In this document: in pieces, positions 34,042 to 46,933 of the stretch | How positions within the stretch are numbered: the first letter of the stretch is position 1 | Layout of the letters: the number at the start of each line of letters is the position of its first letter | From: Methylobacterium sp. AMS5 | GTDB lineage: Bacteria > Pseudomonadota > Alphaproteobacteria > Rhizobiales > Beijerinckiaceae | Length of the DNA: 64,000 bases | NCBI RefSeq assembly: GCF_001542815.1 | Contig: NZ_CP006992.1 | Location: 2,175,501 to 2,239,500, forward strand | Direction: 5' to 3' | Made by a program: the position numbers and the translations under genes | The notes under the pieces: generated by a model | Told to the model about the DNA's origin: nothing | Seen by the model: the letters and a program-made list of their open reading frames with translations, nothing else | Database searches by the model: none

Positions 34042-34266
34042 GAAGTCTCTCCGAGAACGGTGGATCATCGATCCATTGGCACCCCAACGGGTACGGCCTG
34101 GATTCGGTTCACTCCCGATGTGCCGAAGCTCACGCTACGTCCTGTCGCATGAACGAAGCGGCAAGGGGCCGTTCATCCAATCGTCAGGATCGAACTACGA
34201 ACCCGTGAACGGGGTCGGGCACGGCGGATCTTCGGCCTAACCTTGGCCATAGCGTGCGCTCAGCGC

Positions 34267-34941
34267 TCAGCGTCGGCCGCCGACTTCGTCGAGGTGTTCC
34301 AGAAGCATCGCCGGGTCGTCGTAGACCCTGACGGCGCCGGAGCGTTCCAACTCTTCCGTGCCGTATCCACCCGACAGCAGGCCGACTCCGAGCCCGCGAC
34401 AGCGGCGGGCCGCCAGCATGTCCCAGATCGAATCGCCGACGATCACCGCGTGCTCGATCGGTGCGTTCAGCCGCTCGGCGGCGGCGAGGAACAGGTCCGG
34501 ATCGGGCTTGGCGTATTTCACGAGGTCCCGCGTCACCACCGGCACCTGTCCGGGATCGACGCCGAGCGCGACGAGGTTGTGGCCCGCGGTCTCCATTCGG
34601 CCGCTGGTGGCGATGGCCCAGGGGATGCGGTTCTCGGTCAGCGTCGCGAGCAGTTCCCGGGCGCCCGGGAGAGGCACCACGCCCTTCGAGAGCCGGCCAT
34701 AGGCCTCCGCGTGCAGCCGCCGCAGCCGGTCGATCCGTTCCGGGTCGATGGCGAGCCCGGTCTCGCGCAGGAGCTGGTTGGTGAACAGCCCCCCGCTCAT
34801 CCCGATCTTGCGGTGAATGCGCCAGACCGAGAGCGGAATCCCCTCCGCGTCGAGCGCCTCCTTCCAGGCGAGCACGTGCTGGTAGACGCTGTCGACCAGC
34901 GTGCCGTCGAGATCGAACAGGAAGACGGTTTCGATGCGCAT
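34267..34941 (-). CDS. HAD-superfamily phosphatase (beta-phosphoglucomutase/Gph-like)
   Basis: A 224-residue haloacid-dehalogenase phosphatase. Motif I FLFDLDGTLVDS gives the nucleophilic and general-acid Asp, motif II is IATSGR, motif III the Lys in KYAKPDPDLFL, and motif IV VIVGDSIWDMLAA. A helical cap lies between motifs I and II (about 20-85). Substrates of this subclass are small phosphorylated sugars or phosphoglycolate; none can be chosen. It diverges from jetA with about 126 bases between starts. Confidence 0.86.
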   Translation of the reverse strand: MRIETVFLFDLDGTLVDSVYQHVLAWKEALDAEGIPLSVWRIHRKIGMSGGLFTNQLLRETGLAIDPERIDRLRRLHAEAYGRLSKGVVPLPGARELLATLTENRIPWAIATSGRMETAGHNLVALGVDPGQVPVVTRDLVKYAKPDPDLFLAAAERLNAPIEHAVIVGDSIWDMLAARRCRGLGVGLLSGGYGTEELERSGAVRVYDDPAMLLEHLDEVGGRR

Positions 34942-35067
34942 GGAGCGACTCCATCGGTGGCGGTCACCGAGACAACGGTCGCATGCCCCGGTCGATGCAT
35001 GGGGGATGGCGCTGCGCGAGCATTGACCGGCGGCGTCCGAGCGGGTTGTGGTCGCGCCCATCCCGTC

Positions 35068-36480
35068 ATGCTGTTCACCCATCTCGCCGACGACCTCTTC
35101 CGACCGCTCGCCTCGCCGAGCCGCGCCTTCAACGCGGCCCTGCTGCTGCACCTGCACGCCCGCGTGTTCGGCGACGCCGCCGAGCCCTTGCGCAAGAGCG
35201 AGCTTCTGGCGGCCATCGGCGACTTTTCCGCCGGCTGGAGCCAGGCCGAGATCGCCGACGACGAGGCGACACCCGTCGATCCGATCGAGCGGCGCTCGGC
35301 GGTGTTCCGGCGGCTGATCGAGGCCGGCTGGCTGGTGGAGCGGCGCGAGCGCTACGTGCCGGTGGTCGATTTCGACCCCGATGCGCGGCTGCTGATCGAG
35401 GAACTGGCCCGGATCGAGCGCGGCGAGACCCGCTCCTACGGCGGCGCGGTGCTGGAGGTGCTGAGCGCGCTGGAGAGCGCCATCGCCAGCCCGGCCGACC
35501 GCTCCGAGGCCCTGCGCAACGCGGCCAAGGCCTCGCGCACCTTCCTCGGCCACCTGCGCGGCTTGGCCGGCGCCATGCGCAAGCTCGAAGAGCGCATCCT
35601 GCGCGAGCCCGATCTCAGCGCGGCCTTCCGGCTCTATTTCGAGGAATTCGTCGAGCGCCACCTCGTCTCCGACTACCGGACCCTGCACACCCGCTTCAAT
35701 CCGTTCCGCTTCCGCTCCGGCATCGTGCGCGAGGCGGGGCGCGCCTTGCGCGATCCGCTGACGCTCCGGGCGCTGGCCGACGGCAATCTGCGCGAGGGCC
35801 GCGCCGCCGACATCACCGCGGCCGAGAGGATGGTGCGTACCGACCTCGTCGAAATCCTCTCGATCTTCGAAGGCCTCGACCCGCATCTCGACGCGGTGGC
35901 CGACGTGGTGGCGCGGCTTGAGCGGCGCATCTCGGCCGCGCTCCGCTACCGCGATCCGCGCGATTCCGCCCGGATCGAGCGGGCGGCGGCGGCGCTCCGC
36001 GCGGTCGGCGCAAGCGAGGACGACCTCGCCGGCCTGCCCTTGCCGCAGATCTCGCTCTTGCGCCCGCCGATCGGCCCGCCGCAGCTCACGAATCCGCGCA
36101 TGCCGCGCCGGATCATCGAGTACGAGCCCCTGCCGGAGATCGACATCGATCCGGCGATCGAGGCCTTCATCGCCGCCAAGGACGAATTCCGCCGCCGCAT
36201 CACCGTGACGCCAGAGCGCATCGTCGCCTATCTCGACGCCCGGCTCGCTCAGGCGAAGGCCCTGCGCGGCTCGGACATCCAGGTCGATGACGTCGATGCC
36301 TTCGTCGTCTTTCAGCGCCTGCGCGAGATCGACGTTCTGTTCGACGGCGTGCTGCGCAGCCGCTACCGCGTCGCCCGGATCGAGGGCCGCGTCTCCAACG
36401 GCTGGCTCGACTGCCCGGACTTCATGATCGAGCGCATACCGCCCCCCGCCGCCCGGCGCGGAGCCGGCAAAGCAGGCTGA
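35068..36480 (+). CDS. jetA: Wadjet/MksF-type kleisin JetA
   Basis: A 470-residue protein of the JetA (type I Wadjet) family, the kleisin-like subunit (MksF/MukF analogue) of an SMC complex. The N-terminal winged-helix region matches the family (LADDLFRPLASPSRAFNAALLLHLHARV; then RSAVFRRLIEAGWLVERRERY). The middle is helical (about 110-330) and a C-terminal DNA- or head-binding part follows. Wadjet complexes extrude DNA loops and restrict small circular plasmids. jetB follows 12 bases later, but the SMC gene jetC is 5 kb away and no jetD nuclease is present. No strong ribosome-binding site precedes the ATG. Confidence 0.82.
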   Translation: MLFTHLADDLFRPLASPSRAFNAALLLHLHARVFGDAAEPLRKSELLAAIGDFSAGWSQAEIADDEATPVDPIERRSAVFRRLIEAGWLVERRERYVPVVDFDPDARLLIEELARIERGETRSYGGAVLEVLSALESAIASPADRSEALRNAAKASRTFLGHLRGLAGAMRKLEERILREPDLSAAFRLYFEEFVERHLVSDYRTLHTRFNPFRFRSGIVREAGRALRDPLTLRALADGNLREGRAADITAAERMVRTDLVEILSIFEGLDPHLDAVADVVARLERRISAALRYRDPRDSARIERAAAALRAVGASEDDLAGLPLPQISLLRPPIGPPQLTNPRMPRRIIEYEPLPEIDIDPAIEAFIAAKDEFRRRITVTPERIVAYLDARLAQAKALRGSDIQVDDVDAFVVFQRLREIDVLFDGVLRSRYRVARIEGRVSNGWLDCPDFMIERIPPPAARRGAGKAG

Positions 36481-36492
36481 ACGGACAATCCG

Positions 36493-37128
36493 ATGCTCGA
36501 ACCCTTCCGCGCCATCCTCGACGGCGAGGAGACGCCCCCGCCCGGCAGCGCCGCGCCGAGCGAGGAGGAACTGACCCGCGCGCTTCAGGTGATGCTGAAG
36601 AGCCAGTGCATCTACGCCGCGACCACCGGAATCGGCCGCTCCTACGAACTCGCGCGGCACTACGCGCCGTTCTTCCGCGACTACTTCGCCTGCCTCGGCT
36701 ACCGCTTCGAGGTCGCCCACCGCGATCAGATGGTGTTCCTCGCCCTGCCGCCCGATGGCGTGCGCCACGACGCGCAAGGGGAACGCCTGCGCAAGGACGA
36801 GACGCTGGTGCTGCTGGCGCTCCGGCTCGCCTACGAGGAGGGTCTGCGCGACCACCGCGTCTCCACCGACGGCACGGTGGAATGCACCACCGACGACATC
36901 GCCGACGCGATCCGCTCCGCCGCCCGCGCCGAGCCGCCGGACGAGGCGCGCCTGATCGAGATCCTGCGCCTGTTCGCCCGCAAGGGCGCCCTGCGGCTGG
37001 GCGAGCGCGACCGGGCCGAGCGGGTCACGCCGTTGATGGTGATGCCGGGCATCACCGTGCTCTCGCCGGATGCCTGGATGGATCAGGTTCGCGCCTGGGC
37101 CTCCGCCGGGGAGGGAAGGGGGGCCTGA
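36493..37128 (+). CDS. jetB: Wadjet/MksE-type subunit JetB (DUF4194)
   Basis: A 211-residue winged-helix protein of the DUF4194 family, the KITE-like subunit (MksE) that binds the kleisin. Characteristic stretches are VMLKSQCIYAATTGIGRSYEL, YFACLGYRFEVAHRDQMVFLAL and RKDETLVLLALRLAYEEGLRD. It is twelve bases downstream of jetA and clearly co-transcribed. In standard Wadjet operons jetC starts immediately after this gene, often overlapping; here a minus-strand LysR gene overlaps its 3' end by 46 bases instead. Confidence 0.82.
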   Translation: MLEPFRAILDGEETPPPGSAAPSEEELTRALQVMLKSQCIYAATTGIGRSYELARHYAPFFRDYFACLGYRFEVAHRDQMVFLALPPDGVRHDAQGERLRKDETLVLLALRLAYEEGLRDHRVSTDGTVECTTDDIADAIRSAARAEPPDEARLIEILRLFARKGALRLGERDRAERVTPLMVMPGITVLSPDAWMDQVRAWASAGEGRGA

Positions 37129-38045
37129 CTCTCGGCCTGGGCCCAGGGCGCGGTGGAGAAGGCCCGTTCCAGGAAGGCGATCAGTGCCGAGACCCGGGCC
37201 GGGCGCGGCAGGCCCGGCGGCATCACGAGGTTGAGGGCGATCGGCGGCGGCTGCCAGTCCGGCATCACCCGCTCCAGGCGGCCCGACTTCAGATCCTCCC
37301 AGATCGTGAAATCCGGCTGCACCGCGAGGCCGAGCCCGGCGCGCAGGGCCGGCGCCAGGGCGTCGGCGTTGTTGGCCCGTAGCGGGCCTTCGGGCACGAT
37401 CGTCACGGTTTCGCCGGCACTGTTGGTGAAGGGCCAGCGGTCCGGGGTCGGCAGGTAGGCGTAGCCGAGGCAGGCGCGGGCCTTCAGATCCTCGGGATGT
37501 TGCGGCGGTCCATAGCGTTCGAGATAGGCCGGCGTCGCCACGAGCGAGCGGCGCACCCCGCAGAGCCGCCGCACCCGGAGCGAGGAGTCGGGCAGCGCGG
37601 CGATGCGCAGACCGAGATCGAACCCGCCGCCGACAAGATCGACCAGCGCGTCGGACAGGTGCAGATCGACCGAGACCTCGCGGTGCGAGGCCAGGAATTC
37701 CGGCAGCACCGGCGCGAGATGAGCAACCCCGAAGGACATCGGGGCCGCGAGCCGCACCCGCCCCCGCGGCACGCCGTTGGCGTCGAGCGCGCGGGCTTCC
37801 GCCGCCTCGCCCGCGGCCAGCAACCCCGCCGCGTCCTCGCGTGCGAGACGGCCGGCTTCCGTGAGCGCGAGGCGGCGGGAGGTGCGGTGGAACAGCCGCG
37901 CGCCGAGCCGGCCCTCCAGCCGCGCCACCGCTTTGGAAACCGTCGCCTTCGACAGCCCGAGTTCGTCGGCCGCACGGGCGAAGGAGAGGGCGTCGGCCAC
38001 CACCGCGAACACGGCCCAGGCCTCAAAATCGGGAAGTTTCGCCAT
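37083..38045 (-). CDS. LysR-family regulator
   Basis: A 320-residue LysR-type regulator. The winged HTH reads FAVVADALSFARAADELGLSKATVS, then LEGRLGARLFHRTSRRLALTEAG; the effector domain (about 90-300) is of the common CrgA/DsdC-like subtype. It diverges from an MhqO-like dioxygenase and MhqD-like hydrolase pair, which it probably controls in response to quinones or electrophiles. Its 3' end runs 46 bases into jetB on the other strand, suggesting that it arrived or was rearranged against jetB. Confidence 0.85.
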   Translation of the reverse strand: MAKLPDFEAWAVFAVVADALSFARAADELGLSKATVSKAVARLEGRLGARLFHRTSRRLALTEAGRLAREDAAGLLAAGEAAEARALDANGVPRGRVRLAAPMSFGVAHLAPVLPEFLASHREVSVDLHLSDALVDLVGGGFDLGLRIAALPDSSLRVRRLCGVRRSLVATPAYLERYGPPQHPEDLKARACLGYAYLPTPDRWPFTNSAGETVTIVPEGPLRANNADALAPALRAGLGLAVQPDFTIWEDLKSGRLERVMPDWQPPPIALNLVMPPGLPRPARVSALIAFLERAFSTAPWAQAESQAPLPSPAEAQART

Positions 38046-38180
38046 TGCTCAAATCCGGAAACGATGCGTTTCAATCGTTTCCATTTTCAGGCGAGCAGGC
38101 AAGGGCCAGATTGCGCTCACACCGATCGCAGCCCGGACATGGATCCCCGTGGCGATCCTCTCGAACAGGAGACCCGCACC

Positions 38181-39110
38181 ATGAGCGCGCACGGCATTCA
38201 CCACGTCACGGCGTTTGCGAGCGATACGGCCCGCACCATCGACTTCTACACCCGCGTGCTCGGCCTGCGGCTGGTGAAGAAGACCGTCAACTTCGACGAT
38301 CCGGGCACCTACCACCTCTATTTCGGCGACGAGGCGGGCGCTCCCGGCACGATCCTCACCTTCTTCCCGATCGCCCAGGCGGCCCCCGGCCGCGTCGGCA
38401 TCGGGCAGGTATCGGAGGCCGCCTTCCGCGTGCCGCGCGCTTCCATCGGTGCCTGGACGCACCGCTTCGTTTCGCTGAACGTCTCGCATGAGGCGCCGGT
38501 GACGGTCTTCGGCGAGACGGTGCTGCGGTTCCGCGATCCCGATGGGATGCCGCTGGCGCTCGTCGGCGTCGAGGGGGCGGAGGCCGAGCCGGCCTGGACC
38601 TTCGAGGACATCGCGCCGGAGACCGCGATCCGCGGCTTCCACGGCGTCACCCTGCTCCTGCGCGGGGCGGAGGCGACCGCCGCGATCCTCACCGACGTGC
38701 TCGGCTTTGCGGAAGCCGCCCGCGAGGGCAGCCAGATCCGGCTGACGAGCGGGGCGGGCCTCGGCGGGTTCGTGACGCTTCGGGCGGTCGGCGACTTCCT
38801 GCCCGGCCGGCAGGGGGCGGGCTCGATCCACCACATCGCCTTCCGTGCCGCCGACGACGCGGCGCAGGCGGCGATGACGGAGCGGCTGAGCGATCGGCAC
38901 GGCCTGTCCGTGACCGAGCAGCGCGATCGGCAGTACTTCCGCTCGGTCTACTTCCGGGAGCCCGGCGGCGTGCTGTTCGAGATCGCCACCGACGCGCCGG
39001 GCTTTGCGATCGACGAGCCGGTGGCGGAACTCGGGACCGCGCTGAAGCTGCCGCCCTTCCTCGAGCCGCATCGCGGGCGGATCGAGGCGGTGCTGCCGAA
39101 GGTCGCCTGA
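38181..39110 (+). CDS. MhqO-like ring-cleaving dioxygenase (VOC family)
   Basis: A 309-residue tandem glyoxalase/VOC protein. Metal-binding positions are visible in GIHHVTAFASD (first module), GFHGVTLLLR, SIHHIAFRA and the Glu in GVLFEIATD (second module). It aligns with B. subtilis MhqO/MhqA, hydroquinone-type ring-cleaving dioxygenases that remove quinones and aromatic electrophiles. An MhqD-like hydrolase follows 76 bases later and a LysR regulator diverges, so this is a compact quinone-resistance module. AGGAGACCCGCACC precedes the ATG. Confidence 0.86.
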   Translation: MSAHGIHHVTAFASDTARTIDFYTRVLGLRLVKKTVNFDDPGTYHLYFGDEAGAPGTILTFFPIAQAAPGRVGIGQVSEAAFRVPRASIGAWTHRFVSLNVSHEAPVTVFGETVLRFRDPDGMPLALVGVEGAEAEPAWTFEDIAPETAIRGFHGVTLLLRGAEATAAILTDVLGFAEAAREGSQIRLTSGAGLGGFVTLRAVGDFLPGRQGAGSIHHIAFRAADDAAQAAMTERLSDRHGLSVTEQRDRQYFRSVYFREPGGVLFEIATDAPGFAIDEPVAELGTALKLPPFLEPHRGRIEAVLPKVA

Positions 39111-39186
39111 ACCGACCGCACGCCTTCGCGTCCGCCCGGAATCGATCCGGGCGGTCGCACTTTCCTCAGACGGAACGGAGACAGCC

Positions 39187-39816
39187 ATGACGAACGGCGT
39201 CACCTTCGACTTCATCCACCGCTTCGAGCCCGGCGCAGACGAGCGTGCGCCGCCGCTCCTGCTGCTGCACGGCACGGGCGGCGACGAAAGCGACCTGCTT
39301 TCCCTCGGCCGCGCGCTCTCGCCCGGCTCCGCGCTGCTCTCGCCCCGCGGGCCGGTTCTGGAGAACGGCATGCCGCGCTTTTTCCGCCGTCTCGCGGAGG
39401 GCGTGTTCGACGAGGCGGATGTCCGCCGCCGGGCCGGAGACCTCGCCGCCTTCGTCGCGCAGGCGCGGGCGGCCTACGGGCTCGCCGCGCCGGTGGCGGT
39501 CGGATTCTCGAACGGGGCCAACATCGCCGCAGCGACCCTGCTCCTGCACCCGCAGGTGCTGGCGGGGGCGGTTCTGCTGCGGGCGATGGTGCCGCTCGCC
39601 GAGAGCCCGCCGGCCGACCTCGCCGGCCGCCCGGTGCTGCTGCTCTCGGGCGCTCTCGACCCGATCGTGCCCGCCGAGAATGCCGAACGGCTCGCCGCGC
39701 GTCTTCAGCAAGCGGGCGCGGCGGTGACCCACACGGTCAATCCGGCCGGTCACGGCCTGTCCCAGGCCGATCTGGCCGCCTCCGGGACGTGGCTCGCCAA
39801 GAATTTTGGCGGCTAA
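39187..39816 (+). CDS. MhqD-like alpha/beta hydrolase (carboxylesterase)
   Basis: A 209-residue alpha/beta hydrolase of the phospholipase/carboxylesterase (YodD/MhqD) group. LLLLHGTGGDESDLL gives the oxyanion region, the nucleophile is in VGFSNGANIAAA (Ser in GFSNG), the acid Asp in SGALDPIVP and the His in NPAGHGLS. In B. subtilis MhqD is induced with the ring-cleaving dioxygenase by quinones; the same pairing occurs here. The product is cytoplasmic. Confidence 0.87.
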   Translation: MTNGVTFDFIHRFEPGADERAPPLLLLHGTGGDESDLLSLGRALSPGSALLSPRGPVLENGMPRFFRRLAEGVFDEADVRRRAGDLAAFVAQARAAYGLAAPVAVGFSNGANIAAATLLLHPQVLAGAVLLRAMVPLAESPPADLAGRPVLLLSGALDPIVPAENAERLAARLQQAGAAVTHTVNPAGHGLSQADLAASGTWLAKNFGG

Positions 39817-39897
39817 GCTTCCCGCGACAGGGCCTGTCCGGAGCGGGGATCGGGGACTCGGCGTGACATAACCGATGTGGCGGGGGCATCGCCCCCG

Positions 39898-40863
39898 TCA
39901 CGTGGCCTGACTCGGTGCTTGCCCCGTCACACCCAGGTGCAGCCTCCAGGTTTCACCCTCGACCGGCATGCCGAAGCCGGTATGAGTCGCGGTCTCGACG
40001 CAGGTGAAGCCGTGGCGGGCATAGATGCGCCGGGCGCTTTCCAGAACCGTATGGGTCCACAGCGTGAGGCGGGAATAGCCCGTGTCGCGGGCGAAGCCGA
40101 TGCAGGTCTCGACGAGCGTCTCGCCGATGCCGCGGCGGCGGGCGAAAGGCTCGACATAGAGGAGGCGCAGCCGGGCGGTGCCGCCACCTTCATCGGTGAG
40201 GAAAACGGACCCCGCCAGGAGGCCGTCGATCTCCGCGATCCAGCACTGCTCGCGCTCCGGCTTGAAATTTCTCAGGAAGTCGGTGGTGGTCTCGCCCTCG
40301 GTGATTTCCAGGCCGCGGCCCCAACCGTGGCTCCGGGCGTAGAGCATCGATTGCCGGGCCGCGATCAGGCCCATATCGCCCGTGCGGAACGGGCGGATCG
40401 CGAAGCCCGGAACCGATTCAGGTCGCAGCAGCAGGCGCACGCGCGCCATCGCCTGCGCCAGATCCGCCCTCTGGACGGAATCGAGCTCGCCGACGAGGCT
40501 GGCCACGGCCGCGCGCTGCCGTCCGTCCAGGCCCTCGAATGCGCTGCGCCCGGCTTCGGTCAGTCGGATCGGCCGGGCACGCGCATCCGCGCCGCGGGCA
40601 CGGGTGATCCAGCCCCGCTGTTCGAAGCGGGATAGGATCCGGCTGACATAGCCCGCATCCATGCCGAGCGTTGCCTGCACCGCGGACGCGGTGAGCGGCT
40701 TCTCCGCCCGGTCGTGCGTCGCGATCTCGAACAGCAGGCGTGCGTCCGGAAGCGTGACGTCGCAGCCGAGAAACTGATCGTCAAGCGCGCCGACGAGTCC
40801 GGTGTAGAACCGGTTGAAGCGGCGGACCGTGGCGATGACGTCGTCGGCGCTGACATCCTTCAT
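39898..40863 (-). CDS. MarR-GNAT fusion regulator/acetyltransferase
   Basis: A 321-residue two-domain protein. The N-terminal MarR-type winged helix (about 5-145) has TASAVQATLGMDAGYVSRILSRFEQRGWI. The C-terminal GNAT acetyltransferase (about 155-315) has the acetyl-CoA loop LLYVEPFARRRGIGETLVE. Such fusions are frequent in alphaproteobacteria; the acetyl acceptor is unknown. The start at 40863 (MKDVSADD) is preferred because a palindromic operator lies just upstream; a TTG at 40902 would place that operator in the coding sequence. Probably autoregulated. Confidence 0.83.
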   Translation of the reverse strand: MKDVSADDVIATVRRFNRFYTGLVGALDDQFLGCDVTLPDARLLFEIATHDRAEKPLTASAVQATLGMDAGYVSRILSRFEQRGWITRARGADARARPIRLTEAGRSAFEGLDGRQRAAVASLVGELDSVQRADLAQAMARVRLLLRPESVPGFAIRPFRTGDMGLIAARQSMLYARSHGWGRGLEITEGETTTDFLRNFKPEREQCWIAEIDGLLAGSVFLTDEGGGTARLRLLYVEPFARRRGIGETLVETCIGFARDTGYSRLTLWTHTVLESARRIYARHGFTCVETATHTGFGMPVEGETWRLHLGVTGQAPSQAT

Positions 40864-40884
40864 GACCACAACGTCGACGAGAAA

Positions 40885-40899
40885 GTTGACGGAGTCAAC
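40885..40899. promoter_or_regulatory. Palindromic operator of the MarR-GNAT gene
   Basis: GTTGAC-GGA-GTCAAC is a perfect 6-3-6 inverted repeat located 22-36 bases upstream of the ATG at 40863. That is where a MarR-family protein would bind to repress its own transcription. Binding is inferred. Confidence 0.45.
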
Positions 40900-40902
40900 C
40901 AA

Positions 40903-41342
40903 ATAGACGGTCAGTCTGAGGTGAGCGGTATCGCCGTCGGCGAAAGCGGGGGCGCCGAGAGGTGCCTCGGGACCCCTTCCTTCCCAAATCCGTCTGATCC
41001 ATCCGGAATGGCGGATTTGGGCTTCGCTCAGGCGCCGCCCAGAATGAATGGCACGGGTGCTGCCTGGATCGTCCGGGAGCCGTACCGTTTCGGCGACGGC
41101 CGGATACGCGGATCTGCGGATCGATACGCAGCGGCACCAACACGATGCCTTCCCGGCCGGACGCGCGACCTTAGGGTGACCGGTTCGTTAACGATGCCGT
41201 TCGATAAACGGGAACCCGCAAAATCCGCCTAGTTTTAAGCCAAGTGACCCTTTGCGCGCATGCGTTCGCGGCGGTAACCTAAGGAAAGATTTCGTCAAAA
41301 CGGCTCTCAGGTGCCGATCCGGCAGGATAGGGTCATGATCCC
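40903..41342. other. Intergenic region
   Basis: No gene is supported in these 440 bases. Divergent promoters for the MarR-GNAT gene and the small plus-strand membrane protein should lie here; the right part (about 41190-41345) is relatively AT-rich. Confidence 0.45.
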
Positions 41343-41570
41343 GTGCTAGCGATCCCGCTTCTCGTTATTGTCGGACTATTGATCGGCTTGTTTTATCACT
41401 GGGGGATGCTTGCCGTTGCGAGCTTCTTTATCATCGTCGTGCGGATCATTTATCACTTCCACAACGGCCAGCTGGTGCTGGCCGACCTGTTGATGATCGC
41501 CGCCTCCCTCTGCGCGCTGCAGGGCGGTTATGTTTTGGGAGGCTATATCGCTTGCAGGAAAGACCTCTGA
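41343..41570 (+). CDS. Small membrane protein
   Basis: A 75-residue protein that is mostly hydrophobic. Helix 1 is about 3-22 (AIPLLVIVGLLIGLFYHWGM), helix 2 about 23-40 (AVASFFIIVVRIIYHF) and helix 3 about 46-68 (ADLLMIAASLCALQGGYVLGG). It begins with GTG and has the hydrophobic pattern of a real inner-membrane peptide. No family is recognised. It converges with a second tiny membrane protein. Confidence 0.6.
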   Translation: MLAIPLLVIVGLLIGLFYHWGMLAVASFFIIVVRIIYHFHNGQLVLADLLMIAASLCALQGGYVLGGYIACRKDL

Positions 41571-41576
41571 TCGGCG

Positions 41577-41735
41577 TCAGACCCAGATGATACTGCCTGC
41601 AACCCACGATGCCGTTCCCCATAGAACAATCGAGGCGACAATAAACAGAACACCGTAAGTCAGGCGTGTACGGTCGGCGGGCATTTCAGTGATCGAAGTG
41701 CTGGGCGGTCGGGGGCGCATCTTGTCGTATGGCAT
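41577..41735 (-). CDS. Tiny single-helix membrane protein
   Basis: A 52-residue product with a basic N-terminal tail (MPYDKMRPRPPST) and one membrane helix (YGVLFIVASIVLWGTASWVAG). It converges with the small membrane protein gene, six bases between stops. An upstream ATG at 41783 could add 16 residues. Function is unknown. Confidence 0.45.
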   Translation of the reverse strand: MPYDKMRPRPPSTSITEMPADRTRLTYGVLFIVASIVLWGTASWVAGSIIWV

Positions 41736-42116
41736 GGATCGTATTGGGTTTGCGTCAAAATCGGCGGTTCTCGCATGTGTCAAAATACGCAGGGGGCGTG
41801 GAATGGCAGTAATCGAACCGGTTTCATAAACCTGCCGTTGCAGAAGATCTGTGCCAGTTGTTCCGCGAGTGGTGCCCGGACGCTTCGCCGAATGGCCCTG
41901 GTCTCGGATCGATACGGCCCCGTCAAATCACGGGTCGGTGATTGCTGTATCGATGCCGGCGGCCGCCCGGACCGGTCGTGGTCCGGGGCTGAAGCACCCT
42001 CAGATTGTGACGATCGAGCGCCGCTCGTCGCCTGCCGCGATCCCGCCCTTGCGTGCGGGAGGCGTAGCGTCCATTGCGCTGTCTCTCGTTCAACCTCGGG
42101 ATAAGCGGCCGGGCCG
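41736..42116. other. Intergenic region upstream of jetC
   Basis: No gene is supported. It separates the tiny membrane protein from jetC and must carry the separate jetC promoter, but I cannot identify one. No sequence resembling the end of jetB or another jet gene remains here that I can see. Confidence 0.45.
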
Positions 42117-45100
42117 GTGTACCGCCTCACCGACATTGCGATCTCGAATTGGTACCTCATCCGGCGCGAGCAGATCCGGATTCGGGGCGCGGCCGCGCTC
42201 GTCGGTCCCACGGGCGCGGGCAAGTCGACGATCTTCGATGCGGTCGGCACGGTGCTGGCCGGCAACAATGCGAGCCGGCTCGCGCTCAACGCCTCCGCCT
42301 CGGGCCGCAGCGCACGGACGGTGCGCGACTACTGCCTCGGTTGGATCAGCGACCCGGCCGAGGGCGGGCGCCCGACGCGCGAGGCCTGCGAGACCCTCAT
42401 CGCGCTCGTGTTCGAGAATCCCGCGAGCGGCCGCATCGTCACGGTCGGGCTGGCGCTCGCCGCCCGTTCCGAGGAGCCGAAGGAGGAGACGCTTTCGCGC
42501 TTCATCGCCGTCGGCCACCGTTTCGAAATCGCCGATTACGTGCGCGAGACGAGCGAGGGCAGCTTCGTCGCGCCCTGGGCCGAGATCGCCACCGACCTCC
42601 GCCGCCGGGCCGACACGTTCGAGGAGTTCCGCACCTCCGGCGAGCGCTTCACCGCCGCCGTGCTGGCGACCCTGCGCGAGGGGGCGGCCGTGCCCGATCC
42701 GCGCCAGTTCCTGCGCACCTTCTCCAACGCGGTGGCGTTCAAGCCGATCTTCGACACCAGCGCCTTCGTGCGCAGCTTCGTGCTGGAGGCCGAGCCGCTC
42801 GATGTCGCCCGCATCCGTCAGTCGATCGAGACGTGGCGGCGCCTGCTGGAGACCATCGAGGAGTTGGAGAAGCGCCTCGCCCACCTCTCGCGCATCTGTG
42901 CGCGCTACGAGGGTTGGGCACGGGCGAGCCTCACCGCCGCCCTCGACGAGATGCGCGCCGCCGGCGCCGATCTGCGTCGCCGCATCCTCGACCATGCGGA
43001 GGCCCGCCGCCTGCTCGCCGAGACATCGGAGCGCCTGCGCATCGCCCGCGAGAGCGTGGCGACGAGCCAGGGCTTCGTGCGCGAGATCGACAGCGAGATC
43101 GCCGCCCGCAAGGCGCTGATCGTCGGTAGCGTCGCGGAGGCGCGGCTCGCGGCCTCTCATGCCGGTCTCGCCATGGTCTCCCGCGACCGGCGCGACCTGA
43201 CCAACCGCCTCGCCGGGATCGTCGGCCTCGTGCAGGATGCCGGCCGCCTCAGTGCCCTTGCCGGCCCCCTGCGCCGGATCGATCTTCAGGCAGCGCGCAT
43301 CGTCGAGGCCTGCGCCCGCTCGGGGCTCCGCCGCGAGGCGCCGCCGGAGGACATTTTACGGGTCGACGGGCCGTTGAAGGGGCTGCTGGACGGCCTCGCG
43401 CAGATGCCGGACGTGTCTGGCACCCTGGAAGAGGAGGCGGAAGACCTCGCCCTCAAGGCCCGCGAGCGCGAGAACGAGGTTCGCGGCCTCGATGGGCAGG
43501 TGAATGCCGGCCGTTCCTCGGCGGCACGCCTGTCCTCCGACACGGAGGCGTTCCGCGAGGAGTTGGGCCGGCTCGGCATCGAGGCGGCGCCGATCTGCGA
43601 ACTCGCCGAGATCGTCGATCCGAAATGGGGCCCGGCCCTCGAAGGCCTGCTCGGCCGCGCCCGCGAGGCCCTGGTGGTCGAGCCCGACCGGCTGGACCGC
43701 GCCTTCGCCCTGCTCGAGTCCCGAAAAAACCAGTTCTTCCGCTGTCTCCTGGTAAAGACCACTGATACGGCGCGGCGCGCCGCGCGGCGCTTCGATGACG
43801 GGCCGATGGGCCTGATCGAGACCGACAGCGACCACGCCGAGGCCTTCCTCGCCGCGCGGCTCGGCGGCTACGATCTCGCGCCCGACGATGCGGCGCTCCG
43901 GAACATGAGCCGCGCCGTGGCGCCGAGCGGGCGCTCGACTTCGGGCATGGCCTATTCGGTCGTGCGCCCCGTGCCGCTGATGATGACCCGCGGCCAGCGC
44001 GGGCCCACCGCCGAGACCCGCCGCCGCCTCGACGAGGCGCGCGAGGAGGCGCGGACCCTGCGGGCCGAGGCCACGGTGATGCGCGAGGCCGCCCGGATCG
44101 CCGCGCTGCTGCGGAGCCGACTGGCGGAAGCGCCGATCGATCTCGAGGCTCTGCGCGCCGAGGCCGACGCCATCGAGGGCCGCCGCCGCAGCCTCTCCAC
44201 CGAGCAGGAGACCGTCGCCCGCGCCGATGCCGGCGTGATCGAGGCGGAGCTGAAGGAGCTTCAGAAGGAGCGCTCGGCCTATCTCACCGAACTCGTGCAG
44301 GTGCTGGAGCCCAAACGCGACGCCGCACTCGCGGAGGAGGCCGGACTGAAGGCCCGTGTCGCGCAAGGGAGGGAGGCGGCGCGCGCCGCGTTCCTGGCCT
44401 ACCGCACGGCGCTCAAGCGCTGGACCTCCGGCGACACCGTCCGCATCCGCCTCACCGGCACCGTTCCCGCCGACGTACCGGACACGGTGGCCGGGATCGC
44501 CGCGGCACGGGCGGACCGCGCCGCGCTCGACACCAAGGCGCTGGCGTCGCTGGCCTCGCAGGCCCGGGCCTCCGCCCGCGAGGCCGCCGACAGCGTGCGC
44601 AACCAGGGCCGCGCCGCCGAGCGGGATCTTGCCGAGTACTGCGCCGCGTGGCGCGTCGAGAACCCGCTCGGTTCGGGCGAGCAGCCGGCCTCGTTCGGCT
44701 ATGCCTGGGCGACCCGCGAGCGCGACGAGGTGGCGGGGCACGAACTGCGCCGCTACCGCGACCAGTCGCTCCGGGCGGAGGCCGAGATGCGCCGCCTGAT
44801 GACCGAGGATCTGCTGACCCGGCTCGCCGACAAGTTCGAGCGGATGCGGGCCCGGCTCGACGCCCTCAACGAGCGGCTGGCGTCGCAGACCTTCACCGGC
44901 CAGACCTACGCCTTCGAGGCGGAGGTGGACCGCCGCTACGCCGCCGTCCACGCGCTCGCCACCGAAGTCGCGCGCTCGCCCGACGCGGCGCAGGCGGTGC
45001 TGCCGAGCCCCGACAATGGGACGGATGGCGGACCGGATAACAGCCCGCTCGCGGCCGCACTCGCCGAGATCACGGCGCTGATCGAGGGCGAGGAGAACGC

Positions 45101-45596
45101 GGCGCGGCTGGCCGATTACCGCAACTACTTCGTCTACGAGATCGGCATGCGCGACCGGGCGGGCAACCGCACCACCCTGTCGAGCCGGGCGCTGCGCGGG
45201 TCGGGCGGCGAGGCGCAGGCGCCGTTCTACGTCGCGATCGCCGCCTCCATGGCCTCCGCCTACTATCCCGGCGACCGCCCCGGCGACGAGACGCCGGGCC
45301 TAGGCCTCTGCCTTCTCGATGAAGCCTTCTCGAAACTCGACGTCCGCAACAGTCAGTCGCTGGTCGATCTCTTCCGCGCCTGGGGCCTGCAGCTCCTCAT
45401 CGCAGCGCCCGAGGACAAGCGCACGACGCTGACGGAAGTGATGGATACGGTCGTCACCGTGTACAAGAGCCCGGATCTCGGCTCGGTCCGAATCGAGGCC
45501 GAACATCCGTTGGAAACCGCCAAGCGGGCGCTGGCCGAAATCAACCCGGATCGGCGCGGAATCGACGCGTTCCGCCTGCCCAGCGCCGCCGAATAA
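42117..45596 (+). CDS. jetC: Wadjet/MksB-type SMC ATPase JetC
   Basis: An 1159-residue SMC-like motor ATPase of the MksB/JetC family. Walker A is LVGPTGAGKST (residues 28-38), long Ala/Arg/Glu-rich coiled coils run from about 280 to 480 and 640 to 960, and a hinge-like globular part lies near 500-620 (ICELAEIVDPKWGPALEGLLG). The ABC signature is RGSGGEAQAP (about 1025-1035) and Walker B GLCLLDEAFSKLD (about 1060-1072). All catalytic motifs are intact. In Wadjet it drives loop extrusion with JetA and JetB. Here it is detached from jetAB by 5 kb and lies directly upstream of rpsL. It starts with GTG and has a weak ribosome-binding site. Confidence 0.85.
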   Translation: MYRLTDIAISNWYLIRREQIRIRGAAALVGPTGAGKSTIFDAVGTVLAGNNASRLALNASASGRSARTVRDYCLGWISDPAEGGRPTREACETLIALVFENPASGRIVTVGLALAARSEEPKEETLSRFIAVGHRFEIADYVRETSEGSFVAPWAEIATDLRRRADTFEEFRTSGERFTAAVLATLREGAAVPDPRQFLRTFSNAVAFKPIFDTSAFVRSFVLEAEPLDVARIRQSIETWRRLLETIEELEKRLAHLSRICARYEGWARASLTAALDEMRAAGADLRRRILDHAEARRLLAETSERLRIARESVATSQGFVREIDSEIAARKALIVGSVAEARLAASHAGLAMVSRDRRDLTNRLAGIVGLVQDAGRLSALAGPLRRIDLQAARIVEACARSGLRREAPPEDILRVDGPLKGLLDGLAQMPDVSGTLEEEAEDLALKARERENEVRGLDGQVNAGRSSAARLSSDTEAFREELGRLGIEAAPICELAEIVDPKWGPALEGLLGRAREALVVEPDRLDRAFALLESRKNQFFRCLLVKTTDTARRAARRFDDGPMGLIETDSDHAEAFLAARLGGYDLAPDDAALRNMSRAVAPSGRSTSGMAYSVVRPVPLMMTRGQRGPTAETRRRLDEAREEARTLRAEATVMREAARIAALLRSRLAEAPIDLEALRAEADAIEGRRRSLSTEQETVARADAGVIEAELKELQKERSAYLTELVQVLEPKRDAALAEEAGLKARVAQGREAARAAFLAYRTALKRWTSGDTVRIRLTGTVPADVPDTVAGIAAARADRAALDTKALASLASQARASAREAADSVRNQGRAAERDLAEYCAAWRVENPLGSGEQPASFGYAWATRERDEVAGHELRRYRDQSLRAEAEMRRLMTEDLLTRLADKFERMRARLDALNERLASQTFTGQTYAFEAEVDRRYAAVHALATEVARSPDAAQAVLPSPDNGTDGGPDNSPLAAALAEITALIEGEENAARLADYRNYFVYEIGMRDRAGNRTTLSSRALRGSGGEAQAPFYVAIAASMASAYYPGDRPGDETPGLGLCLLDEAFSKLDVRNSQSLVDLFRAWGLQLLIAAPEDKRTTLTEVMDTVVTVYKSPDLGSVRIEAEHPLETAKRALAEINPDRRGIDAFRLPSAAE

Positions 45597-45984: not shown

Positions 45985-46356
45985 ATGCCGACGATCAACC
46001 AACTGATCGCCCAGCCGCGCAAGGCGCAGAAGGCGCGCAACAAGGTGCCGGCGCTCAACGCCTGCCCGCAGAAGCGCGGCGTCTGCACGCGCGTCTACAC
46101 CACGACCCCGAAGAAGCCGAACTCGGCGCTTCGTAAGGTCGCCAAGGTGCGCCTGACCAACGGCTTCGAGGTGATCGGTTACATCCCCGGTGAGGGGCAC
46201 AACCTTCAGGAGCACTCCGTGGTCATGATCCGCGGCGGCCGCGTGAAGGACCTTCCGGGTGTGCGCTACCACATCCTGCGCGGCGTGCTCGACACGCAGG
46301 GCGTCAAGAACCGCAAGCAGCGCCGTTCGAAGTACGGTGCAAAGCGTCCGAAGTAA
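45985..46356 (+). CDS. rpsL: 30S ribosomal protein S12
   Basis: The 123-residue S12 protein of the decoding centre, starting [15 protein letters not shown]. The loop [18 protein letters not shown] and the later [12 protein letters not shown] carry Lys at both positions where streptomycin-resistance substitutions arise, so the sequence is of the sensitive type. It leads the str operon (rpsL-rpsG-fusA-tuf) in the standard order, but its upstream neighbour is jetC rather than rpoC. Confidence 0.97.
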
Positions 46357-46462
46357 GAATCTCCGGACGGCCATTTCCACGGCCTCGCAAGGATGTCGCC
46401 GGCGTTTACGCTCAAGGCGGCCTGCGCGAGGCGCTTAAGTCGATTAATCTGAGAGCAAACAG

Positions 46463-46933
46463 ATGTCCCGTCGTCACTCTGCCGAGAAGCGCGAGATCAT
46501 CCCGGACGCCAAGTACGGCGACGTCGTTCTGACCAAGTTCATGAATTCCATCATGTACGAGGGCAAGAAGTCGACCGCCGAACGGATCGTCTACGGCGCG
46601 TTCGACATCGTCGAGAACCGCGCCCGCGCCAACCCGATCGAGGTGTTCCGCGCCGCGCTCGACAACGTCGCCCCGGCGATCGAGGTCCGCTCCCGCCGCG
46701 TCGGCGGCGCGACCTACCAGGTTCCGGTCGAAGTCCGCACCGAGCGCCGACAGGCTCTCGCGATCCGCTGGCTGATCCAGGCCGCCCGCGGCCGCAACGA
46801 CCGGACCATGATCGAGCGTCTCTCCGCCGAGCTGCTCGACGCCGCCAACAACCGCGGCAACGCGGTCAAGAAGCGTGAAGACACCCACCGGATGGCCGAG
46901 GCCAACCGCGCCTTCTCGCACTACCGCTGGTAA
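46463..46933 (+). CDS. rpsG: 30S ribosomal protein S7
   Basis: The 156-residue S7 protein that nucleates folding of the 16S rRNA 3' domain. It starts [12 protein letters not shown] and includes [16 protein letters not shown] and [23 protein letters not shown]. It follows rpsL after 106 bases in the str operon. Confidence 0.97.

Follow-up and report, generated by a model that had tools for sequence, protein, structure and literature searches.

A type I Wadjet complex lacking its nuclease as the probable condensin of Methylobacterium groups A, B and D

The type I Wadjet system (JetABCD, also known as MksBEFG or EptABCD) is an anti-plasmid machine in which the motor JetC, the kleisin-like JetA and the KITE subunit JetB are encoded together with the Toprim nuclease JetD in one contiguous operon. 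Two further complexes are proposed descendants of defence complexes, MksBEF having arisen through the loss of JetD and MukBEF having replaced Smc-ScpAB (according to PMC10586767). A set of this kind is found in Methylobacterium sp. AMS5, in a window, here meaning the whole analysed stretch of 64,000 nucleotides (contig NZ_CP006992.1, positions 2,175,501 to 2,239,500), where jetA, jetB and jetC lie between positions 35068 and 45596 without a jetD gene. Comparison across the genus, family and class suggests that a defence machine has been recruited to a housekeeping job, the nuclease-less complex of JetC, JetA and JetB, of the type I Wadjet/MksBEF kind, being probably the only SMC (structural maintenance of chromosomes) condensin of Methylobacterium groups A, B and D. 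Among the papers listed by literature searches, no report was found of MksBEF or JetABC acting as a condensin in Methylobacterium; a mention in the tables of the 2011 MksBEF paper (Petrushenko) is possible.

All three genes are on the plus strand and are recognized by profile models. The first, jetA (35068..36480), encodes a kleisin-like subunit of 470 aa (PF18982, E 9.6e-66; PADLOC JetA1 model PDLC00466, 747 bits), its start corresponding to residue 276 of a longer mechanical open reading frame (ORF; 34243-36480). Separated from it by 12 bp, jetB (36493..37128) encodes a KITE/MukE-like subunit of 211 aa (PF13835, DUF4194, E 3.2e-18; PADLOC JetB1, 392 bits). After a gap of about 5 kb follows jetC (42117..45596), which has a GTG start and encodes an SMC motor of 1159 aa matched over its full length by PADLOC JetC1 (PDLC00506, 1970 bits). 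The preliminary description had placed 35068-37128 in the JetA and JetB families, next to each other, with jetC 5 kb downstream, and the profile scores confirm it for all three type I subunits. Pfam searches of the window returned JetA, DUF4194 and an SbcC/RAD50-like Walker B domain. The motor motifs of JetC had been called intact and are so: against solved JetC chains in the PDB the sequence match is weak (best E 1.8e-11), and the Walker A motif GPTGAGKST (42204..42230), a mid-protein stretch (43455..43853), the ABC signature SGGE (45201..45212) and the Walker B motif LCLLDE (45306..45323; LLDEAF in the alignment; PF13558, E 3.3e-19) are all aligned. The mid-protein stretch, which aligns with residues 428-559 of PDB JetC and is weak when taken alone (i-Evalue 0.95), is probably the hinge, judging by its position. 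JetA and JetB gave no sequence matches to the PDB at E 0.01; for a low-confidence structure model of JetB (mean predicted local distance difference test score 54.7) the top fold matches were PDB JetB and MukE, with non-significant E values. An ordinary Smc-ScpAB mistaken for Wadjet is ruled out by the Pfam and PADLOC scores, JetC reaching 33.3 bits with SMC_prok_B against a cut-off of 567.35, with an own-genome best of 28.5 bits.

Two features of a type I Wadjet system, the nuclease and the contiguous jetABCD operon, are missing here, while JetA, JetB and JetC with intact ATPase motifs are all present by PADLOC, Pfam and PDB alignment. The JetD_C domain (PF09983), which was detected in the positive control Corynebacterium glutamicum, has no match in the AMS5 genome (5.6 Mb, four contigs, completeness 100), none over cut-off in 111 Methylobacterium genomes (six sub-threshold matches, 10.5-12.8 bits) and none in a family sample of 149 genomes. 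The absence of jetD first seen in the window thus holds for the whole genome, and the idea that jetD might be supplied from elsewhere finds no support in these searches. The same genome has a single JetA and a single JetC match, so that no second operon was found. As a local control, 93 loci were scanned at E 1e-4 with JetD from an Erythrobacter JetABCD operon (JetD_C E 5.4e-20) as query; JetD was recovered in the query's own locus and in five others with a distant JetC (L171, L174-L177), always adjoining jetC, and was absent from every Methylobacterium locus. An IFDR motif at the JetB N-terminus has been linked to the docking of JetD (PMC10586767). As a mark of JetD docking it proved uninformative, being unseen in the JetB of the window and likewise near the JetB start in six JetD-bearing loci.

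JetC occurs in 91 of the 111 genus genomes and JetA in exactly those 91. Full-length open frames make up 84 of the JetC matches; in six others a contig end or frame break interrupts the gene, and the last contains a TGA. The 71 named JetC loci are titled Methylobacterium, Methylorubrum, or Methylobacteriaceae/Beijerinckiaceae metagenome-assembled genomes. In the family sample full-length JetC (six genomes) and JetA (six) are all in Methylobacterium, and the JetC matches that a further 20 genomes give at E 1e-3 reach 22.5 bits at most; in a class sample of 385 genomes JetC was found at E 1e-40 in six, two of them Methylobacterium. One M. bullatum set lies on a record of chromosome size (mbul2 'plasmid 1', 2.83 Mb), which is perhaps mislabelled or is a second large replicon.

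Evidence for a chromosomal role comes from the distribution of the canonical condensin. SMC_prok_B (TIGR02168) exceeds its cut-off in 14 of the 111 genomes, 13 without JetABC and one with it (G168, M. hispanicum). Five more JetABC-negative genomes contain strong SMC pieces, mostly on draft contigs (G149, G156, G247, G248, G251); in G247, a single-contig genome, they are adjacent to each other but spread over more than one frame. SMC is thus present in 18 of the 20 JetABC-negative genomes, the remaining two having a 72-bit piece at a contig edge (G152) and no piece at all (G108). At E 0.001 some SMC match appears in every genome (111/111), but in the JetABC genomes other than G168 it never exceeds 52.5 bits (cut-off 567). 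ScpA follows suit, being found in 18 genomes (17 of the 20 JetABC-negative ones and G168) and giving no match in the 90 other JetABC genomes. With the SMCs of the genus and family, which are themselves 57-91% identical to the copy of G213 (two over partial alignments), the SMC of M. hispanicum shares 36-38% identity in long alignments and 45-49% in short ones. Unnamed proteins (80-93%) are closest to the M. hispanicum SMC, followed by others at 42-44% and by Rhodospirillales-type proteins near 37%, and the accompanying ScpA and ScpB are 33% and 36% identical to the native copies. This low identity marks the set as foreign and rules it out as a native counterexample; the foreign Smc and ScpAB genes (L178, L179) stand alongside a normal JetABC, through contamination (listed at 4%) or horizontal gain. 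JetABC and native Smc-ScpAB are accordingly complementary in 109 of 111 genomes, and native co-occurrence was not found. The preliminary description had suggested that the set may have become a condensin for chromosome upkeep, and this is supported indirectly by the pattern, since canonical Smc-ScpAB is missing where JetABC is present and present in nearly all JetABC-negative genomes.

Database searches gave the same division. A Methylobacterium SMC searched against 5.8 billion proteins (best 120 of 7,993 matches, many rows nameless) matched named species that include tarhaniae, currus, frigidaeris, nonmethylotrophicum, nodulans and crusticola, then Microvirga at 60-63%. The best 120 rows for JetC include thiocyanatum, zatmanii, suomiense, organophilum, soli, mesophilicum and others, and no named species is common to the best 120 rows of each. 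In M. aquaticum MA-22A smc is on a 1.57 Mb replicon.

Several considerations weigh against a condensin role. The gain and the loss amount to a single event on a single branch, so that the 111 genomes are not independent trials and the tiny Fisher's p for their pattern carries no meaning. No SMC is scored at E 1e-40 in 16 of 142 family genomes from other genera, and none of these 16 has a full-length JetC. Nine of 13 listed SMC-less genomes are at least 98% complete. Four of them (G013, G054, G086, G111; 98-99% complete) form a genus, g13, with neither SMC_prok_B at E 1e-40 nor a JetC of the PDLC00506 kind, and may have another complex or none; one, G086, matched Lichenihabitans psoromatis at 100% through its plasmid. 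The other five (G024, G039, G063, G068, G069) belong to genera whose other listed members are SMC-positive, so that gaps or sub-threshold pieces are possible, as are real losses. SMC may therefore be lost without a JetABC substitute. The search scored only the best few SMC candidates per genome, though SMC was readily found elsewhere. Within the genus one draft of about 200 contigs (G108) shows none of JetABC, SMC and ScpA, from an assembly gap or as a third state. A nuclease-less JetABC on a Rhizobium plasmid (described below) suggests that the complex can serve another role, and the top-listed matches of the literature search yielded no essentiality, localisation or Hi-C data.

These points bear on an alternative that is unlikely, though the best placed of those considered: JetABC could be auxiliary, serving the upkeep of the chromosome or of large replicons, with Smc-ScpAB lost for other reasons and segregation covered by ParABS and other factors. 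The Lichenihabitans-type genomes, without SMC and without this JetC, fit that picture, as does the 1.3 Mb Rhizobium plasmid that carries the nearest readable locus outside the genus. The complementarity in 109 of 111 genomes without native co-occurrence speaks against it and for JetABC as the resident condensin.

Gene order and rates of change argue in the same direction, and bear on a second, still less probable alternative, that JetABC remains a defence system restricting plasmids through an unlinked or unrelated nuclease. In its favour are its sequence membership in type I Wadjet and the presence in other Alphaproteobacteria of such complexes with JetD adjoining jetC. No genome of the 111 has JetD_C over cut-off, however, and the presence of congruent JetA and JetC in 91 of the 111 is unlike a patchy defence system. 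The jet genes also tolerate separation by megabases. In 76 of the 91 genomes jetA and jetC share a contig and strand at 0.7 to 12.4 kb; in 14 they are on separate contigs, some perhaps through assembly breaks; and in one (G186) jetA lies about 2.5 Mb from jetC on a single 5.5 Mb contig, with jetB adjoining jetC. Some of the loci read have the three genes side by side, some have jetA detached from an adjoining jetB and jetC, some have jetA and jetB detached from jetC, and in some no two of the genes adjoin. The split is thus not unique to AMS5, nor are jetAB and jetC always separated in relatives, the spacing in the genus running from contiguity to 2.5 Mb. With two outgroup loci and four repeat copies of genomes or species set aside, leaving 53 non-duplicate loci of the genus, the distance correlation is 0.97 for JetA and JetC, 0.96 for JetB and JetC and 0.97 for JetA and JetB, values reached in none of 999 permutations. 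Lasting linkage would be expected of a mobile defence cassette; scattered yet co-evolving, JetABC behaves like core genes. The ratio of nonsynonymous to synonymous substitution rates (dN/dS) is 0.03-0.27 for the jet genes of the window against six relatives, all of the extorquens group, in which they are under purifying selection. Around 27 loci, no neighbour is common to groups A, B and D: among 984 ORFs of at least 100 aa there, no hidden effector linked to jetC emerged, and the 20 ORF matches between groups A and D are, in those read, partly ABC-transporter-ATPase-like and at differing places. That the genome of AMS5 itself holds a RepC contig of 117.7 kb also counts against a defence role, though the contig is large for a Wadjet target and the point is not decisive. 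Its other two small contigs carry a type II/IV secretion ATPase and an IS110-type transposase (25.6 kb) and a phage tape-measure gene (20.5 kb). That JetABC is a decaying remnant, as the missing JetD and broken gene order might indicate, is scarcely credible given the intact motifs, the low dN/dS and the joint presence of JetA and JetC in all 91 genomes having either, and the earlier impression that the set is not decayed is upheld.

The direction of the exchange can be read from the species tree, taken here from published work, with genomes assigned to groups A-D by species names. Of the 142 family genomes sampled beyond Methylobacterium, 126 have SMC at E 1e-40, which is therefore probably ancestral. 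Group C, which bears SMC and comprises M. aquaticum, M. nodulans and their relatives, is basal, with A, B and D together, in Leducq et al. (2022; PMC9364378) as well as in Alleman et al. (2025; PMC11833323). Since A, B and D are monophyletic, the gain of JetABC and the loss of Smc-ScpAB both fall on their stem. In G247 the native order is nagZ-scpA-scpB-tatB-tatC, and nagZ, scpA and scpB are together in all eight ScpA loci read. No emptied scpAB site turned up in a JetABC genome; in one Methylobacterium record from a leaf, tatABC has no scpAB upstream of it, a weak pointer in a record that may or may not bear JetABC.

As to the source of the complex, a quick JetC tree of 64 chosen sequences (Shimodaira-Hasegawa-like approximate likelihood ratio support only; several long branches) gives a Methylobacterium clade with support 100. 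Its sister clade (support 100, join 98) comprises Aureimonas, Antarcticirhabdus, Rhizobium, Agrobacterium and unnamed sequences, and the five JetD-bearing sequences included fall outside both. The one readable locus of the sister clade (L169), on the 1.3 Mb plasmid pRlX5 of R. leguminosarum, carries JetABC and lacks a JetD within 6 kb; a FeeM-like gene comes first after its jetC, followed by AbiEii-like and DUF4262 genes. A Salipiger plasmid set (33% identity) likewise shows no JetD. Loss of the nuclease therefore probably preceded the acquisition of the complex by Methylobacterium, possibly on a large plasmid. Antarcticirhabdus and several Aureimonas species carry a sister-clade JetC (41-42% identity), in some cases on contigs of several megabases, and the condensin may have been replaced a second time there.

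A mechanism in keeping with these data, and with the families to which the proteins belong, would be an SMC-kleisin-KITE complex of JetC, JetA and JetB without the JetD nuclease, in which a JetC dimer would drive ATP-dependent DNA loop extrusion, folding the chromosome and aiding its segregation as MukBEF does in E. coli. It would have been acquired on the A/B/D stem with JetD already gone or being lost, Smc-ScpAB being lost on the same stem. A wider reading, rather less secure than an even chance, is that bacteria have a third type of condensin in a nuclease-less lineage of type I Wadjet whose earlier home was the large plasmids or chromids of Alphaproteobacteria. On this view the lineage entered the common ancestor of groups A, B and D and took the place of Smc-ScpAB completely, repeating in recent times the path from defence to housekeeping presumed for MukBEF, with the sister lineage (Aureimonas, Antarcticirhabdus, Rhizobium) maybe a second takeover. 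In M. haplocladii (L066:79-94, G130) a parS-like site with one mismatch lies about 8 kb from jetAB, where 0.002-0.03 would be expected in the 2.35 Mb examined; looked for after the fact, it hints that ParABS is kept in a JetABC genome.

The gap between jetB and jetC in the window had been said to hold at least six unrelated genes, a count that must be lowered to four with Pfam support plus short ORFs without any. A LysR-type regulator (37083..38045, minus strand; PF03466, E 4.4e-41) lies outside the complex and overlaps the end of jetB by 46 bp. It is followed by three unrelated inserts: a VOC/glyoxalase-fold protein (38175..39110, start approximate, plus strand; PF00903, E 3.8e-20, best stretch residues 233-352 of ORF 37497-39110), a carboxylesterase-like protein (39187..39816, plus strand; PF00561, E 2.4e-11; PF02230, E 1.5e-09; NF047577, MhqD, 139.7 bits, below its cut-off of 325) and a MarR-GNAT fusion protein (39898..40902, minus strand; PF00583, E 4.3e-15; PF12802, E 3.5e-10). 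To our knowledge none of the four is a DNA-folding factor. Directly downstream of jetC are rpsL-rpsG (45985-46933), here and in the extorquens-group loci read; no rpsL was seen in the flanks examined of group A and D loci.

The descent of MukBEF and MksBEF from defence complexes, as proposed in a review (PMC10586767), lies far back, whereas the step described here looks confined to part of one genus; close relatives still use Smc-ScpAB, and M. extorquens, a laboratory organism, is among the species concerned. Two questions come within reach of direct tests, namely how a plasmid-cutting machine becomes a safe chromosome organizer and how chromosomes segregate without Smc-ScpAB. Annotation by Wadjet models alone may also count a housekeeping complex as an anti-plasmid system. 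Among known systems, the Methylobacterium complex resembles type I Wadjet in its JetA, JetB and JetC, homologous by Pfam and PADLOC models, and differs from it in lacking JetD, in not forming one operon, in being kept across most of the genus and in coinciding with the absence of Smc-ScpAB. With MksBEF of Pseudomonas aeruginosa it shares the form of a MukBEF-like complex without nuclease, as judged here from the models and the JetD search, the MukB-like label coming from PADLOC descriptions; P. aeruginosa, however, has SMC as well (PMC7485682), whereas here JetABC is the only SMC-kleisin complex found. Enterobacterial MukBEF differs in that JetC here is by score a full-length type I Wadjet JetC, and in that the replacement here is confined to part of one genus. 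The Smc-ScpAB of group C, finally, belongs to a different gene family, by the score of JetC with SMC_prok_B (33.3 bits, cut-off 567.35), and is matched in its SMC-kleisin-KITE architecture and presumed function.

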